A DNA stretch of 49,154 nt from Acidobacteriota bacterium (GTDB lineage Bacteria; Acidobacteriota; Blastocatellia; Chloracidobacteriales; Chloracidobacteriaceae), in contig JACQXX010000020.1 of the NCBI GenBank assembly GCA_016208495.1, positions 1-49,154 on the forward strand, read 5' to 3'. The position numbers and the translations under genes were made by a program. Below are positions 1,386 to 47,566 of this stretch, piece by piece; the stretch's first letter is position 1, and each line of letters starts with the position of its first letter. A model generated the notes under the pieces. That model was not told the DNA's origin. It made no database searches and was given only the letters and a program-made list of their open reading frames with translations.

Positions 1386-2123
1386 ATGAATAAAGCTGTG
1401 TATCTGCTGTTCCTGATTTTTGTTCTCAATCTTAGCTGGTTCAATCAACCCTTGCTGGCACAAGACGAGGCAGTTGTTGAACCCGAAAAAAAATCCTGGG
1501 TAGAATCAACTGGCGCCCGGCAATCTGTCATTGTTGATGCCGGGCTGGCAGCACTCAGAAAAAGCCCAACGTCACAGGGTGAACTCAAACAACGTCTGCG
1601 GGTTGGGCGCAAGCTCTACGTTTTGTCACAAACCCGAAATCGAAAAGGCCAGATATACTATTGGGTGGCGGTCACCCGCCGGACGCGTGGCTGGATTGAT
1701 GGCCGGGCCCTGGCGCGGTCTGGAACCCGTGGTGATGATGTCCGGTTGTGGAAGTTGATTTTGGCAGAGTCAAACCACTTTGAGCAGTTGCGGCTCTGTC
1801 AGATTTTTTTCAGTTTATTCAAACAATCCAAATTGACACCGCAGGTGCTCTGGCAACTGGCCGAGACGGCACAGGCTGAGGCCAGGACCCTGAACTCCCG
1901 AATCCAGCGACGGGCAAAAGAAGCTGCTGCCTCAGAAAATGCCGATCTGGCAGCCTATATTGAAAATGATGTGGGATTGGACCGCTATAACCGGTTGGGT
2001 ATCATTTTCCAGTTTCAGTCTGACACCGGAGAACTGGTCTATGACGGATGGGCACTCCGCCAGCTTCAAAAACGCTTCCCAAAATTTAAACCCCAGACCC
2101 AGGTTCCATCCGCCAGCCCATAA
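1386..2123 (+). CDS. Secreted SH3-like domain protein of unknown function
   Basis: This 245-residue protein starts at ATG 1386 with a clear signal peptide (MNKAVYLLFLIFVLNLSWF, cleavage probably after LLA-Q at about residue 25). Residues 48-105 look like a bacterial SH3 fold: an alanine/leucine strand with RKSP, a strand ending KLYVLSQT, then YYWVAVTRRTRGWID, a typical W-V-x-G/RGWI ending. Such domains usually bind cell-wall peptides or glycans. The rest is helical and charged, with no motif I recognise. No good Shine-Dalgarno sequence is visible. The TAA stop at 2121-2123 lies inside a dispersed repeat that starts at 2118, so the original C-terminus may have been longer. Confidence 0.6.
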   Translation: MNKAVYLLFLIFVLNLSWFNQPLLAQDEAVVEPEKKSWVESTGARQSVIVDAGLAALRKSPTSQGELKQRLRVGRKLYVLSQTRNRKGQIYYWVAVTRRTRGWIDGRALARSGTRGDDVRLWKLILAESNHFEQLRLCQIFFSLFKQSKLTPQVLWQLAETAQAEARTLNSRIQRRAKEAAASENADLAAYIENDVGLDRYNRLGIIFQFQSDTGELVYDGWALRQLQKRFPKFKPQTQVPSASP

Positions 2124-2200
2124 GTGCCAAAGATAAAAGGTTTGAGGCCCGAAGGGTCGTCGTTTAATAGCCGTGGTGCGAAGCCCACGGTCACGGCCAG
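2118..2200 (+). repeat. Truncated copy of the CCATAAG-type repeat element
   Basis: The stretch beginning CCATAAGTGCCAAAGATAA matches, with a few changes, the left 75 or so bases of the element at 43627-43786. The match includes the shared GGGTCGTCGT and AATAGCCGTGGTGCGAAGCC blocks. The inner hairpin CCGTGG/CCACGG is kept. No right terminal repeat is found before the holB stop, so the copy is degenerate or truncated. Confidence 0.7.
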
Positions 2201-2235
2201 GTTGGGAGCCCCACCCTACAAGAGAGCCACACGCC

Positions 2236-23710: not shown

Positions 23711-24228
23711 CCACATCAACTGAGGTTGATTTGGTGAGATAAAACCAGCGGGGAAAGCCGACGCTTGAAGAACTCGCGTCGTCTTTCCCTGTGTTCTTTT
23801 CGGGGCGTTGATTGGCGTGGGCTGACGTGTCCGCCATGTAAATTGCTGAGCATTGATCCCCATAAGCGGCAGGATAAGGAAACAAAGCCCGATCTGGACA
23901 AGGGGACAAGCGGACAAGAGGACAAGGGGGCAAGGAGAAAAAATATTCTCCCGCTCCCACCGTCGGGAGGAGGATCTCCTTGCCTCCTTATCTCCTCAGC
24001 TCCTTGTCTCAAACAGGCTCACATTTTCTTATCCTGGCGTTTATGGCATTGACCCCTGACTATTCATGCGAAGTAAGAGTTGAAAAAAAGGCGGTGTTGA
24101 ACCTGCGAAGCCTGGTACTACACTGAGGTTTCGGTTTTAACTTGCAATTTATTAGCTGCATTCGGGGCAAGCTGCCGCCCAGTTCCTGGGCTACTGTTAT
24201 CTTGGCCATCAGCCTTCAGCCCTGGTTT
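23711..24228. other. 518-bp convergent gap, mostly repeat DNA
   Basis: It holds the MITE-like element at 23860-24046 and, near 24176-24194, a GCCCAGTTCCTGGGC hairpin like those at 22197 and 39657. A long hairpin-like stretch near 23750-23795 (GGGGAAAGCCGACGCTTGAA and CGTCGTCTTTCCC) could end the NHL transcript. I see no gene. Confidence 0.55.
23860..24046. mobile_element. MITE-like element with 19-bp terminal inverted repeats, copy 2
   Basis: The ends are CCATAAGCGGCAGGATAAG (23860-23878) and CTTATCCTGGCGTTTATGG (24028-24046), 17 of 19 paired. Directly outside are near-identical direct repeats CATTGATCCC (23851-23860) and CATTGACCCC (24047-24056), possibly a target-site duplication. Inside, tandem GGACAAGR units (about 23896-23937) are mirrored by CTCCTTGCCTCC and CTCCTTGTCTC. 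No open frame of note. Confidence 0.75.
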
Positions 24229-34757: not shown

Positions 34758-34927
34758 TACCAGTCAGTCGTCAGTCGTTCGCATTGATTCATTTCGTGTA
34801 TTTCGTGGTTAAAATATCTGGGAATTTTCTCCGAAGTATTTATACCAATTGGTGCAATGAAATCCTCATATTGGCAAATAGTTAAATAATTCAACCAAAT
34901 AGACTTAACGAACTACGGACTGGTATA
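34757..34927. repeat. Small element with ATACCAGTC terminal inverted repeats
   Basis: ATACCAGTCAGT (34757-34768) and ACGGACTGGTAT (34916-34927) pair at 11 of 12 positions and bound a 171-bp non-coding segment rich in A and T. The left end overlaps the last base of the stop codon of the PH-domain gene. Confidence 0.5.
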
Positions 34928-41960: not shown

Positions 41961-43616
41961 ATGACGACTACGAAATGTGCTGTTATTGGCCTGGATGGCG
42001 CTACCTTTAATTTGATACTGCCGATGGTGGAAGCCGGAGAACTCCCAACCCTGGGACGATTACTTCGCGAAGGCAGTTGGGGGCACCTGCGGTCAACCAT
42101 CTTGCCAAACAGTTTCCCCGGCTGGGCCAGCGCCACAACTGGCACCTCGGAAGGCATGCACGGTATTTTTTCGCCATTTCTCAAGCGCCGCGAAGAGTAT
42201 GGCGTTCGGGCCATTTCAGCGGTTGATCTGCAAACCCGGCCTATCTGGGATTTGCTGAACACCCAAGGCTATTCAACTGGAATCATCAACATTCCAACCA
42301 CCTATCCGGTTGAAACGGTGACCGGATATCAGGTCACGGGAATGCTGACCCCCAGTACAAAATCACCATTTACCTATCCACCTTCACTCCAGGCCGAATT
42401 GTTGGGTCACCTGCCGAACTACATTATCGAACCCCGCCGGGCACTTGGACGGGCTGAAAAAGCGGCTGAGTTTCACAATTGTTTGGAAGGGCATGTCTGC
42501 GCTGCGGAATATTTGATTCAAACGTACCCGACCGATTTTTTTATGATTGTGCTGAGTGTGCCGGACCGTGCCCAGCATGATTTCTGGGCGGATATGGATC
42601 CAAATCATTTTCGATATGATCCGACTCAATCACCTGAATACAGTGATTTTATCCGGGATGTATACCGACAGGCAGATGCCGGTGTTGAGCGGATACTCCG
42701 CCGATTGCCAGAGGATGTAATGGTTGTGATTTGCTCTGACCACGGATTTTCGGCAGAACTGCGTGAATTGCGAGTCAATGAATGGCTCGCCCAGCGTGGA
42801 TTCCTCCGCTACCAGCCTGAAGCCTTCCGGACAGCAAATACCACGCTCGACAAAATCTCAAATAAATTGACCTATCACTATCGAGCCTTATCCACCAAAC
42901 TCAAGCCGCACTCGGTTTTAGAGAAAAAAGTTGTCTTCGGACGCGATTTTCTCAATCAAATTGACTGGGAGCAAACAACCGCATTTTTCGGGCAGGACAA
43001 AGGCGTCTGGATCAACCTCAAGGGCCGTGATCGGGTGGGAACGGTTGAGCCGCAGGACTTTGAGCGGGTTCGGACTGAAGTGATCCAGGCGCTGAATGAG
43101 TGGATAGACCCTGAAACCGGGAAATGTGTTTTTGAAGCCGTTGTACCGCGCGAAGCTAGCTTAACTGGGCGGTTTGCTGACCGATTGCCGGATATTTTAG
43201 TCATTCCAAAACGATCAGAAGATGTACCGATTGAAACCGCGAGTCCCGGAGCGCCAATTGTCCCCGCAACCACAACAACAGGCACGCACGCCCCAGAAGG
43301 TATTCTTCTCATGGCGGGGCCGCACATTCGTCGAGACCACCGGCTGACCGGTGCCAACCTCCGCGATATTACGCCAACCGCCCTGTTTGCAATGGGGGCG
43401 GCACTCACACAGGACATGGATGGCAAACCGCTGGTGGATGCCTTTACCCCAGAATTTGCAGACATCAGCCCCATTCGCCGCCAGGGAACGTCTTACAAAG
43501 ATGGATTGACAGGTGGATCAAATCCAAATGCGTCCAGTTCCTCGACTGAGGTTTTTTCAGACGAAGAAGCTAGCGAACTGGAAGAGCGATTGCGTGCGCT
43601 GGGCTATTTGGGCTGA
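41961..43616 (+). CDS. Alkaline-phosphatase-superfamily phosphodiesterase/nucleotide pyrophosphatase
   Basis: This 551-residue enzyme is of the type I phosphodiesterase family. Metal and catalytic positions seen: VIGLDGATFNLI (metal Asp near residue 11), the nucleophile region ILPNSFPGWASATTG, SVPDRAQHDFW (Asp and His), VICSDHGFS (Asp-His pair) and GTHAPEGILLMAGP (last His). It likely hydrolyses phosphodiester or similar esters. No signal peptide is visible, so it appears cytosolic. The substrate is unknown. There is no Shine-Dalgarno sequence before ATG 41961; a heptad array takes that space. Genes of this family in the phylum are sometimes near secreted TPR proteins, which is not the case here. 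Confidence 0.85.
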   Translation: MTTTKCAVIGLDGATFNLILPMVEAGELPTLGRLLREGSWGHLRSTILPNSFPGWASATTGTSEGMHGIFSPFLKRREEYGVRAISAVDLQTRPIWDLLNTQGYSTGIINIPTTYPVETVTGYQVTGMLTPSTKSPFTYPPSLQAELLGHLPNYIIEPRRALGRAEKAAEFHNCLEGHVCAAEYLIQTYPTDFFMIVLSVPDRAQHDFWADMDPNHFRYDPTQSPEYSDFIRDVYRQADAGVERILRRLPEDVMVVICSDHGFSAELRELRVNEWLAQRGFLRYQPEAFRTANTTLDKISNKLTYHYRALSTKLKPHSVLEKKVVFGRDFLNQIDWEQTTAFFGQDKGVWINLKGRDRVGTVEPQDFERVRTEVIQALNEWIDPETGKCVFEAVVPREASLTGRFADRLPDILVIPKRSEDVPIETASPGAPIVPATTTTGTHAPEGILLMAGPHIRRDHRLTGANLRDITPTALFAMGAALTQDMDGKPLVDAFTPEFADISPIRRQGTSYKDGLTGGSNPNASSSSTEVFSDEEASELEERLRALGYLG

Positions 43617-43626
43617 GGGCTGAGGG

Positions 43627-43786
43627 CCATAAGCGCCAGGATAAGGGGTTTTAGGCCCGCAGGGTCGTCGTATAATAGCCGTGGTGCGAAGCCCACGGAC
43701 CCGGCCCGCAACGAGACCCAACCCCGAAAGAACATCATTGAATGCCACCGGAAAGAGCACGGGCTTTCTTATCCTGGCGCTTATGG
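43627..43786. mobile_element. MITE-like element with perfect 19-bp terminal inverted repeats, copy 1
   Basis: CCATAAGCGCCAGGATAAG (43627-43645) and its exact reverse complement (43768-43786) bound 160 bp without a real gene. The interior contains GGGTCGTCGT and AATAGCCGTGGTGCGAAGCC, shared with the truncated copy at 2118, and a CCGTGG/CCACGG hairpin. The related element at 23860-24046 has the same ends but a different interior. Confidence 0.85.
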
Positions 43787-43789
43787 GGT

Positions 43790-43905
43790 TTGGGGCTGAG
43801 GGATGAGGGCTGAAGACTTCGGGCTGAAAAATTGGTTTTATTTCATCCCTCATCCCTCATCCCTTCAATTGTCCTCAGCCCTGGATTTCTCAACCCGATA
43901 TTTTC
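43790..43905. repeat. GGGATGAGGG-type inverted repeat
   Basis: GGGCTGAGGGATGAGGGCTG (43793-43812) faces CATCCCTCATCCCTCATCCC (43845-43864) with a CTCAGCCC end near 43875. It follows directly after the MITE-like element. Together they nearly fill the 454-bp gap between the phosphodiesterase and the next gene. Confidence 0.7.
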
Positions 43906-44959: not shown

Positions 44960-45090
44960 GCTTGAATTATTCGAAGAACCCGGAACCTGGACAAGGTGAC
45001 AGGGTGACAGGGTGACAGGGTGACAAGGGGATTTTTTCATCCCTTATCCCTCATCCCTCATCCTTCATCCCTTAAAGAACCCGGAACCCC
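44960..45090. repeat. Octamer/heptamer repeat array
   Basis: Four GGTGACAR units of 8 bp (44995-45026) are followed by CCCTTAT, CCCTCAT twice, and CCTTCAT (45041-45068). Flanking AGAACCCGGAACC sequences occur on both sides (near 44975 and 45077). This lies between the coiled-coil protein and the VWFA gene and would be read as protein if the downstream frame were wrongly extended. Confidence 0.75.
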
Positions 45091-45121
45091 ATTTCCAGCC
45101 CCGTTTGAGGAGGACCACACT

Positions 45122-47566
45122 GTGAGACAGTTCTTTCGTGTTCAAAGAAATATCGTGACCACACGATTGATCAAGGGGAAGAGCAAGTGGGCCATATTGG
45201 TTGTATTTTTGTGTTTAGCTTGTTCCTGGGGGCAGGTAACCGCAGATTCAGATGATGTCTTCGAACAAAGCTTTGAGGTTGGCGCCAACGCCAATGTCAA
45301 AGTTGATAATCCGGCTGGCACAATTGCCGTGGAGGTCTGGGGAGAAGATCTGATTCATATTGTGGCAACCCGAAAAGGCGCCGGGAGCCAAAGAGTTCTG
45401 CAATCAGAGGTCTCGTTTTGGAAAGGGACCAATCAAATCACGGTGGTTTGCCCTTCCAAACTGGATGCGGGGCCGATCAACCTGAAAATTTATATTCCAC
45501 GCCGGGCTCACCTTCGATTGACTACCAATCAGGGAGATGTGGAAGTTTTGGGGCCAGTCACCAGTGCCAGCATTGAAACCCAGACTGGAAATGTGCTGGT
45601 TGAATCTCCAAGTTCACAGGATGCCGAAGTCATCATGCGCTCGACTTCCGGTTCGGTCACCTGCGGCGTTCAGATGACGGTGTGTGATTCATCAACCCCA
45701 ACGCTGGTGGAAGGAAAATTAGGCAAAGGCGGTTCGGCGATTGTCATTCGCAGCACCAGTGGAAACATCAATTTGCAACCCTTGCGACCACAACTGGCGA
45801 AGTTGATTGCCAAAGGACCCACATCTGATTCCCAGGCAAGCCCGCTTTCAGATGATCAATTGTCTTCCAAAGGGTCAATTTTGCGGCAGCGGCGTGATCA
45901 GGTTGTAACCCAGCCCGATTCATATGGAACAAGTTCGGGGAATTCCGATCCGTACAATTCATCCTCACCTAGCCGAACAGGTGGCGGGGGATACACCGAT
46001 GTCTTTGGTTCCAGCCGAGATACTCAGTCATCAGGTTCCAGAGTTGATCAATCAGGGACAGGGCAAAGACAGGGTGGCGGGACAAACAATACCCGAGGGG
46101 GACTTGGTGTGCGGATTATTCCTCCACCAGGATCAACCCAGCCACAGGAAACGACGGCGGCAGATTCGGTTCTGGATGACCTGAACTCCACCGATCCAGC
46201 GACCAAAGGGAAGCGTGATGATCGTTCGTCATCTGGTGGATCTTCACCGAACACTCCTTCATCACCACAAAGTCAAACGGGTGGCGGATACACAGATGTT
46301 TTTGGTTCAAATCGTGATACCCAGTCGTCTGGTTCAACGATTGACCAGTCAGGGACATTGCGACGGCGGCAAGGTGGCGGGACAAACAATACTCAGGGCG
46401 GGATTGGGGTTCGGATCATTCCTCCGCCAGGATCAACCCAACCTCAGCCGACAACCGCGGCTGATTCAGTTATTGATGATCTGAATACCAGTGATCCGGT
46501 AAACTCTGGTTCGGGTGGTGGCTCTCTCTCCCGGCGAAATAAAAATCGAGGGACGGATGATTACCTTGGATCGGCAAACTCACCTGATACCAGTCGAGAT
46601 TCGACAGGACCAAACCCACCACGCATTGTTCGTCGGGGAGATGATGGCAGCCCAGACCCAACTCGCAAGCCCGTAGACGACACAGATTCTGATGAAGACA
46701 CCATCAAGCTTGATACCAAGCTGGTCAATTTGAATGTCACGGTTTCAAATCGCTCCGGACGGGCCATTACCGACCTGAAGCAAACTGATTTTGTGGTTTT
46801 TGAAGATAGCGTCAAACAGGAAGTATCCCACTTCATACCGGTCGCAACACCGTTTAATCTGGTGTTATTGCTTGATTTAAGTGGCAGTACACGGGAAAAA
46901 ATTGATAGCGTCAAACGGTCGGCCCTGCGATTTGTCGCCGCAACCAGCCCTCAGGACAAAGTTGCCATTGTGGCTTTTACACGGGGTGTACAGGTGGTGG
47001 CCCGGCCAACCAATGACCGTGAACTCTTGAAAAAACGCATTCAGGAAATGCAGCGCACTGATGGCGGAACGGCCTTTTACGAAGCCATGGACTTTGTGAT
47101 GAAGGACGTGTTGCGCGGTCTACAAGGGGAACGAAATGCCATCGTGGTGATGACCGATGGCGTAGACAATGCGTTGAGCGTGGCGTATCCAGCACCGTCA
47201 CGGGTTTCATTTAAACAGATGCTCGACAAGGTTTTGGAATTTGGCACGCTGGTGTATCCCGTGTATCTGGATACGGAAAGTGAAAACTACGCCCAGCAGT
47301 GGGGGGAATCGGCTGAAGTGTATGCCACGGCCCGCACCCAACTGCAGCAAATTGCCGATGCTTCGGGTGGGGTTTTGTACATGGCGCCCAATGTTGAAGA
47401 TTTGGGCAATATCTATGAAAAGATTGCCAATGAACTCCGGACGGTGTACAGCATCGGCTACTACCCGGCGTCATTTACCAAAGATGGCCAGTGGCACAAA
47501 ATCCAGGTCAAGATCAATCGTGGTGAAGGCGTGATCCGAACTCGCCGGGGGTACTACGCCAAGTAG
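45122..47566 (+). CDS. Secreted protein with acidobacterial VWFA-related domain
   Basis: This 814-residue protein starts at GTG 45122, with GAGGAGG 8 nt upstream; the frame is open to 45020 through a repeat and is not used. A signal/anchor lies at about 22-42 (WAILVVFLCLACSWGQVTA). Residues about 50-220 resemble a DUF4097-like repeated beta-strand (adhesin) domain (VEVWGEDLIHIVATRKG, LTTNQGDVEVLGPVTSASIE). A disordered Gly/Ser/Asn-rich middle contains two near-identical segments (about 285-358 and 384-458). The C-terminus has the VWFA-related module: LVNLNVTVSNRSGRAITDL, then MIDAS residues DLSGS (585-589), TDGGTA and MTDGVDN. The MIDAS motif is complete, so metal-dependent ligand binding is plausible. 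It is phylum-typical; the ligand is unknown. Confidence 0.88.
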   Translation: MRQFFRVQRNIVTTRLIKGKSKWAILVVFLCLACSWGQVTADSDDVFEQSFEVGANANVKVDNPAGTIAVEVWGEDLIHIVATRKGAGSQRVLQSEVSFWKGTNQITVVCPSKLDAGPINLKIYIPRRAHLRLTTNQGDVEVLGPVTSASIETQTGNVLVESPSSQDAEVIMRSTSGSVTCGVQMTVCDSSTPTLVEGKLGKGGSAIVIRSTSGNINLQPLRPQLAKLIAKGPTSDSQASPLSDDQLSSKGSILRQRRDQVVTQPDSYGTSSGNSDPYNSSSPSRTGGGGYTDVFGSSRDTQSSGSRVDQSGTGQRQGGGTNNTRGGLGVRIIPPPGSTQPQETTAADSVLDDLNSTDPATKGKRDDRSSSGGSSPNTPSSPQSQTGGGYTDVFGSNRDTQSSGSTIDQSGTLRRRQGGGTNNTQGGIGVRIIPPPGSTQPQPTTAADSVIDDLNTSDPVNSGSGGGSLSRRNKNRGTDDYLGSANSPDTSRDSTGPNPPRIVRRGDDGSPDPTRKPVDDTDSDEDTIKLDTKLVNLNVTVSNRSGRAITDLKQTDFVVFEDSVKQEVSHFIPVATPFNLVLLLDLSGSTREKIDSVKRSALRFVAATSPQDKVAIVAFTRGVQVVARPTNDRELLKKRIQEMQRTDGGTAFYEAMDFVMKDVLRGLQGERNAIVVMTDGVDNALSVAYPAPSRVSFKQMLDKVLEFGTLVYPVYLDTESENYAQQWGESAEVYATARTQLQQIADASGGVLYMAPNVEDLGNIYEKIANELRTVYSIGYYPASFTKDGQWHKIQVKINRGEGVIRTRRGYYAK

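Follow-up and report, generated by a model that had tools for sequence, protein, structure and literature searches.

The window analysed here, a stretch of 49,154 nucleotides corresponding to contig C20 of an acidobacterial genome of 8.38 Mb in 177 contigs, contains two short elements bounded by common inverted ends and filled with different interiors. This raises the question whether such ends move whatever happens to lie between them, as a preliminary description had proposed from the sequence of the window, or whether defined interiors were acquired and amplified. The exact inverted pair of 19 bp was found at 43627-43645 and 43768-43786, and it lies far beyond chance, as the window comprises four matches to the 19-mer with up to three mismatches compared to 0.01 expected from 100 shuffles. 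The second pair (23860-23878 and 24028-24046), formerly described as having the same ends, is present as well, but only near-identical, with one mismatch per end to the 19-mer at different positions. Since the outermost base varies among the copies and belongs to the flank, the repeat proper is corrected to 18 bp (CATAAGCGCCAGGATAAG). On this basis the window comprises the following features, in which A and B denote the two interiors treated below:

43628-43785, plus strand: type A MITE copy of 158 bp, 88.7% to the type A consensus
43628-43645, plus strand: its left 18-bp terminal inverted repeat, CATAAGCGCCAGGATAAG
43768-43785, minus strand: its right 18-bp terminal inverted repeat
43617-43627, no strand: its left flank, where the 11-bp target duplication has decayed to 8/11
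43786-43796, no strand: its right flank, where the 11-bp target duplication has decayed to 8/11
43653-43698, minus strand: Acido-Lenti-1-like hairpin pair within this element, 24.8 bits, below the gathering score of 37
23861-24045, plus strand: type B MITE copy of 185 bp, a long imperfect hairpin
23850-23860, no strand: left copy of its 11-bp target duplication, GCATTGATCCC
24046-24056, no strand: right copy of its 11-bp target duplication, GCATTGACCCC
2119-2224, plus strand: left part of a decayed type A copy, 84.9% to positions 1-104 of the consensus
2145-2190, minus strand: Acido-Lenti-1-like match within this decayed copy, 24.8 bits

Accordingly, the type A copy has not only the one relative in the window that had been noticed before, but also a third, decayed type A copy at about 2119-2224, whose right end was not found. 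The direct repeats beside the type B copy were borne out with a length of 11 bp, GCATTGATCCC and GCATTGACCCC being identical at 10 of 11 positions. The flanks of the 43628 copy (GGGCTGAGGGC and GGGTTTGGGGC) agree at 8 of 11 positions within GGGCTGA-type sequence. Short tandem repeats of the GGGCTGA and GTGACAAGG types recur at insertion sites, for example at 43600-43627 and 43786-43870. The window also encodes a protein at 45020-47566 that scores above the cut-off of TIGR03436 (acidobact_VWFA), which, like the presence of Acido-Lenti-1, points to the Acidobacteriota as the phylum.

Across the source genome, 313 matches to the 19-mer were determined with up to three mismatches (reversed-pattern control: 1), and 252 matches to the 18-mer with at most one mismatch (reversed control: 0). 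Inverted pairs were collected from fetched stretches, amounting to 61 at first and later to 92 distinct elements of 147-547 bp, compared to a maximum of about 156 pairs allowed by 313 end matches. As the 92 pairs comprise the places listed first by the searches and loci fetched later, intact ends are over-represented among them. A pair of 135 bp at locus L089 lies outside this set, and two of the 92 elements show a right end with six mismatches and are probably false pairs. The copy number of the gene-less short elements in this genome is probably above one hundred. The family thus shows what is expected of MITEs: short, non-coding elements that lie between terminal inverted repeats and occur in high copy number (313 end matches, 92 pairs), with an empty site and a target duplication of fixed length, both described below.

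Clustering of the interiors with a coverage rule assigned 54 of the 92 elements to type A, including the 43628 copy, and 32 to type B, including the 23861 copy. The six others comprise three elements that contain a second MITE family, one with an odd left part, and the two with the six-mismatch right ends; judged from their sequences, all six are A or B elements that contain nested insertions, are truncated or were paired with a false right end. The median pairwise identity is 0.86 within type A and 0.79 within type B, the latter forming a long imperfect hairpin with GACAAGG-like units in variable number. Since 86 of the 92 elements carry one of two self-similar interiors, a swapping of the interior at each move was rejected. 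Different interiors do lie between the 18-bp ends, but these are two that were acquired and then multiplied, without free exchange. In the fetched DNA, two strings from type B (15 and 12 distinct places) and one from the right half of type A (35 places) always lie within 230 bp of an end, and more than 230 bp from an end were found 1 of 30 places for a string from the middle of type A and 17 of 95 places for a string from the Acido-Lenti-1 core. When 40 of the 54 type A interiors were aligned, one element (L084) appeared to be a mosaic, its left half resembling subtype A1 and its right half subtype A2. A protein inside the element was also considered and rejected, as the lengths of type A are not kept in one frame: with 30, 13 and 11 of 54 elements they fall into all three classes modulo 3, which gives no sign of a protein and agrees with the former statement that neither window element is coding. 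The second MITE-like family is unrelated, about 121 bp long (TAAGTACCTTACCGAAAA...AAGGTACTTA) and present at 40 places or more in the source genome; it occurs as a nested insertion in elements of both types, at positions 305-425 of locus L119 (see below) and as a 38-bp fragment at 34792-34829 of the window.

A comparison of the two flanks of each of the 92 elements showed a peak of identity at 11 bp, with 0.694 compared to 0.358 for shuffled flanks. Small excesses were determined at 5, 10 and 12 bp (0.417 vs 0.322 shuffled at 10 bp, 0.379 vs 0.296 shuffled at 12 bp), and the values at 6-9 and 13-15 bp were close to the control. The flanks were identical at all 11 positions in 23 elements, at 10 positions in 18 and at 9 positions in 6. 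Hence 41 of the 92 elements match at 10 or more positions, where 1000 shuffles gave 1.5 on average and never more than 6, and the 41 include 24 of 54 elements of type A, 15 of 32 of type B and 2 of the 6 others. Flanks with a period of 7 occur in 12 of the 92 elements; outside of these, 36 of 80 elements match at 10 or more positions (shuffles: mean 1.2, maximum 7). Of all 92 elements, 45 show fewer than 9 of 11 matches, among them the 43628 copy; many copies are old, or a few pairs are false. From the 47 elements with at least 9 of 11 matches, a symmetric target consensus SSSYTNARSSS was obtained, which is shaped in part by the local GGGCTGA-type repeats (12 of 92 elements). The target preference of IS231A is reportedly GGG(N)5CCC. 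That this insertion sequence (IS) has an insertion specificity is stated in PMC2266710.

For one element (L167 on contig C40), the sequence before insertion can be seen. It interrupts a dispersed repeat, of which two paralogous copies (L070 and L037) are uninterrupted; their alignment runs through the junction, where the 11 bp GAATCCGGCCC occur once, and the same 11 bp are duplicated without any difference (11/11) at the L167 insertion. Joined flanks match elsewhere for 29 of the 92 elements including this one, many of these matches looking like short tandem repeats, so the empty-site evidence is that of one inspected element with paralogous sites and no orthologous one. Based on the target duplications and the empty paralogous sites, the mobility that had been claimed for the elements therefore stands. 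Altogether, this is a genuine MITE family with the ends of an IS, in which both fresh and decayed copies are present, and as such it is of a known kind.

The IS itself is visible at contig ends. Four contigs (C105, C166, C84 and C104) start within an element that has the 18-bp end and other contents, and a fifth (C98) stops within one; four of the five reach 137-140 bp into the element and one 174 bp. In our reading, an IS cut at contig ends fits the collapse of a multi-copy repeat by the assembler. One end (C105, C166) contains an ATG-initiated frame (ATGTGTTTGCCG...) with a plausible start, and the other (C84, C104, C98) contains 30-42 codons from the end of an open frame terminating in GVNSQSKALAL. 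All five carry identical outer 18 bp. As three distinct flanks were found at the C84/C104/C98-type end, the IS is present in at least three copies. The flanks at C105 and C98 show the same 11 bp (GGGCTGAGGGC), which is weak evidence because these lie in GGGCTGA repeats. Of the full-length element with the same ends and a transposase, for which the preliminary description had suggested a search, only the ends were obtained; the transposase body is absent from the assembly. No IS4-type transposase was found in the assembly, where a search with PF01609 gave two matches, neither of them with 18-bp ends, which we read as one IS982-like and one ISAs1-like transposase. For the 42-residue tail of the IS frame, no relative was found in plasmids or NCBIfam, and two weak matches (E 0.013 and 0.024) were obtained in 117 other genomes of the class; the better one (L183) was discarded, as its 321-residue frame reads as an exported or lipoprotein-like protein and not as a transposase. 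Between the MITEs and the IS, nothing shared was detected beyond the ends.

For the assignment of this IS, Table 1 of PMC2266710 gives the IS231 ends as CAT-------AA--TAA--- with direct repeats of 10-12 bp. The 18-bp end agrees with seven of the eight conserved positions, position 12 being G instead of A, and the 11 bp measured on the MITEs lie within the range of the direct repeats. Compared to the ISH8 subgroup, the CAT end is shared, but the direct repeat there is 10 bp and not 11 bp. Judged by its ends and the 11-bp duplication, the resident IS most likely represents an IS231-like part of the IS4 family. A further mark of the IS231 subgroup of IS4, the single-ORF DDE transposase with its Y(2)R(3)E(6)K motif, would lie in the body that the assembly lacks. 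The likeness to the IS231/MIC231 elements of the Bacillus cereus group (IS4 family) extends, as far as described in PMC2266710 and PMC6542083, to CAT-starting ends with matching inner positions, to duplications of about 11 bp and to non-transposase contents between the same ends; a reference cited by PMC2266710 calls the IS231-MIC231 elements 'modular' in its title.

Three contents, namely type A, type B and the IS, hence have one 18-bp end in common, which had been regarded as unusual for MITEs. It is not unheard of, the IS231-MIC231 elements being a close precedent. MITEs sharing only their ends with a helper IS are known, and MICs carry a passenger gene, whereas no passenger gene was found in the 147-547 bp elements described here. 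With bacterial MITEs in general they have in common the short, non-coding form, the terminal inverted repeats, the target duplications, the high copy number and a presumed mobilisation in trans. They differ in that two unrelated interiors and an IS share one pair of ends in one genome, and in that one interior holds the motif of a known RNA family. The GACAAGG-like units of type B recall the internal repeat array of a minisatellite MITE described from Porphyromonas gingivalis (PMC4596501), although the host is another one and the likeness is one of description. In the searched literature on MITEs of Acidobacteria and on insertion sequences of Blastocatellia, no title or abstract opening describes the present family.

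The window elements are therefore very probably non-autonomous MITEs with the ends of an IS231-like IS that are mobilised in trans, their two interiors having been amplified separately. The transposase of the resident IS would act on the common 18-bp ends, presumably by a cut-and-paste reaction, and each insertion would lead to an 11-bp duplication of the target, which is symmetric and rich in G/C (SSSYTNARSSS). Of this reading, the number and sequence of the ends, their presence on an IS, the duplications, one empty site and the Acido-Lenti-1 content were observed, while the family of the IS, the mobilisation in trans, the cut-and-paste reaction and the direction of capture are conclusions drawn from these. 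Against the reading speak the transposase body missing from the assembly, the tail with its two weak matches, the lack of any detected likeness to the IS beyond the ends, the influence of local repeats on the target consensus, and the 45 elements with fewer than 9 of 11 matches. MITEs arise classically by internal deletion of IS copies, and such an origin would also account for 18-bp ends common to the elements and an IS that is present in three copies or more. However, queries with the known IS ends (140 and 174 bp) matched elsewhere only the terminal 22-24 bp or nothing, so neither interior resembles the known ends of the IS. For the part of the IS that these ends cover, an internal deletion was rejected, and this origin is considered improbable. 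Even less probable, to the point of being hardly tenable, is an explanation by immobile repeats, i.e. structural or regulatory palindromes of the REP or attenuator type, which were spread by recombination or gene conversion. It would fit the strong hairpins of the two window elements (z of -5.3 and -9.4), their position behind the stop of a long frame in the mechanical list of open reading frames, and the stems of the Acido-Lenti-1 motif of type A, which by eye stay paired despite sequence changes between genomes. The 11-bp duplications in 41 of 92 elements and the empty site speak against it, and so do the internal pairs of type A, which are mostly invariant; the few two-sided changes, in 4 to 5 sequences at two pairs, seem to reflect the split into subtypes A1 and A2. 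Returning to the reading as MITEs mobilised in trans, the two non-coding interiors would have been acquired between IS-type ends and then amplified separately, type B as the long imperfect hairpin and type A with a hairpin pair that probably derives from a dispersed, REP-like repeat.

This hairpin pair of interior A belongs to Acido-Lenti-1 (RF01687). The 43628 copy matches the whole model and remains with 24.8 bits below the gathering score of 37. An Rfam scan of six loci found matches above this score at L088 and L066, but not at L009, L002, L081 or L119; in a later scan, L064 passed, and a second copy at L066 and the copy at L084 failed. Over the source genome, at least 119 matches at E ≤ 0.5 were obtained from the 150 scored of 1554 first-look candidates, and five of the 119 reach the gathering score. 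An 18-bp end with no more than one edit stands on the expected side of all five. Sub-threshold matches are poor when taken alone, and may be accepted as Acido-Lenti-1 by the homology of their interiors to the copies that pass. The type A motif resembles the RNA in its two hairpins with a CTA-containing linker and in the five copies reaching the gathering score, but differs in lying inside a transposon, in being highly repeated, and in the low score of the window copy. At L066 5457-5505, a match to chrB-b RNA of 34.2 bits, below its gathering score of 36.5, overlaps an A2 interior and is possibly another repeat filed as RNA.

With respect to the origin of the motif in the source genome, it could have spread from inside type A, the free copies being decayed elements. 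Within an edit distance of 4, both 18-bp ends were found near 53 of the 119 matches, only the left one near 27, only the right one near 8 and none near 31 (backwards-end control: 0 left, 1 right); two of the 119 lie near a contig end, where a missing 18-bp end proves nothing. While the 88 matches with at least one end nearby are in line with such a spread, and the 2119 copy of the window shows such a decay, the 31 copies without an end include arrays with a period of about 66 bp near contig ends (L289 on C146, L290 on C128). They also include a copy on C173 (L299, position 361), in which the Acido-Lenti-1-like module lies between inverted CAAGCGAAGGA ends; similar single ends occur at L083 4720 and L314 387, which suggests another small element family. 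Moreover, the motif occurs in 34 of 148 other genomes of the phylum, none of which contains the 18-bp end with at most one mismatch. A spread from type A is therefore unlikely, and the direction of capture would rather be from a dispersed repeat into the MITE.

Including the source genome, 35 of 149 phylum genomes contain RF01687 at E ≤ 0.001, with 28 above the cut-off. Ten of them show at least 30-38 matches each, and since at most 38 candidates were scored per genome, the true copy numbers may be higher. Of 14 control genomes, none matched at E ≤ 0.001 and three matched at E ≤ 0.5, none of these above the cut-off. Among 48 copies inspected from nine genomes, some of those in G107 and G166 occur in inverted pairs with starts 107-142 bp apart, and several are preceded by a hairpin of the CGTCCCTACGGGACT type. 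By eye, the stems of these 48 copies change their sequence between genomes and stay paired, which fits a functional hairpin, either as RNA or as DNA, and by itself gives no support for a transposon. Among 14 loci fetched from G149, a pattern search showed 5 at which the Acido-Lenti-1 core is enclosed in an element of 145-205 bp whose ends are of the GGTGTCTGYGTCATAGC type. For four of these elements, GCCGTCCCTAC and TACGGGACT form the flanks, which places them inside the CGTCCCTACGGGACT-type hairpin, and the fifth has a slightly different left end. At L220, L222, L224 and L228 of this genome, TAC stands on both sides of the elements within the hairpins.

Taken together, the Acido-Lenti-1 motif has the behaviour of a REP-like repeat both in the source genome and elsewhere in the phylum, being palindromic, dispersed, of high copy number and arranged in inverted pairs or arrays. 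REPs and BIMEs likewise comprise dispersed palindromes, some in inverted pairs or arrays; the Acido-Lenti-1 module differs from these by its 46 bp with two stems. REPs are known targets of some ISs (PMC1525189). The chances are about even that Acido-Lenti-1 in this phylum is chiefly a REP-like mobile hairpin, which has become the interior of unrelated MITEs with 18-bp, CAAGCGAAGGA and GGTGTCTGYGTCATAGC ends. The motif, catalogued as a structured non-coding RNA without an assigned function, was described from Acidobacteria and Lentisphaerae, and is listed in Table 1 of the same paper as a probable RNA that is probably not cis-regulatory (PMC2864571). Acido-Lenti-1 'ncRNAs' near genes were reported with a suggested regulatory role (PMC13298647). 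The titles and abstract openings of the searched literature on Acido-Lenti-1 and RF01687 contain no description as a mobile repeat.

Outside the source genome, searches by end sequence among relatives and across the phylum gave stray single matches. In 395 other genomes of the phylum, two showed one match each (18-mer, at most one mismatch), and ten of 38 relatives showed one match each at up to two mismatches. A scan of one genome per species over 84,980 species, from which the source genome is apparently absent, resulted in 11 contigs, ten of them with a single match, compared to an estimated number of about 7 matches expected by chance. No exact match of the end was found in viral_contigs. 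Inverted pairs in other genomes, from which the preliminary description would have judged mobility together with empty sites, were thus not found in the searched genomes of the phylum, and the claim is carried by the target duplications and the one element with empty paralogous sites. The exception is the eleventh contig of the species scan, 3.9 kb long (L119, JACQYI010000074.1) and filed under another MAG, a groundwater cyanobacterial one. It contains this IS end as well as a type A-like end, the type A-like stretch showing 97% identity over 116 bp to the copy on C155. In our reading of the translation, the IS end interrupts an acyl-AMP-ligase-like gene. A use of this contig as an empty site was dropped, as no match of the gene to the source genome was listed among the 40 of 505 candidates scored. 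No other contig of this MAG has a match at up to two mismatches, which makes a misbinning of L119 probable. With this contig, the family is present in more than one assembly.

For the genome, a single set of IS ends with two unrelated interiors, in probably more than one hundred copies, provides a plain mechanism for a striking repeat family. The twist on this known kind of MITE is that one of its cargoes is the hairpin of an orphan RNA family, itself a dispersed repeat. This opens a testable reinterpretation of that family, according to which Acido-Lenti-1 'ncRNAs' reported near genes may be mobile or REP-like repeats.
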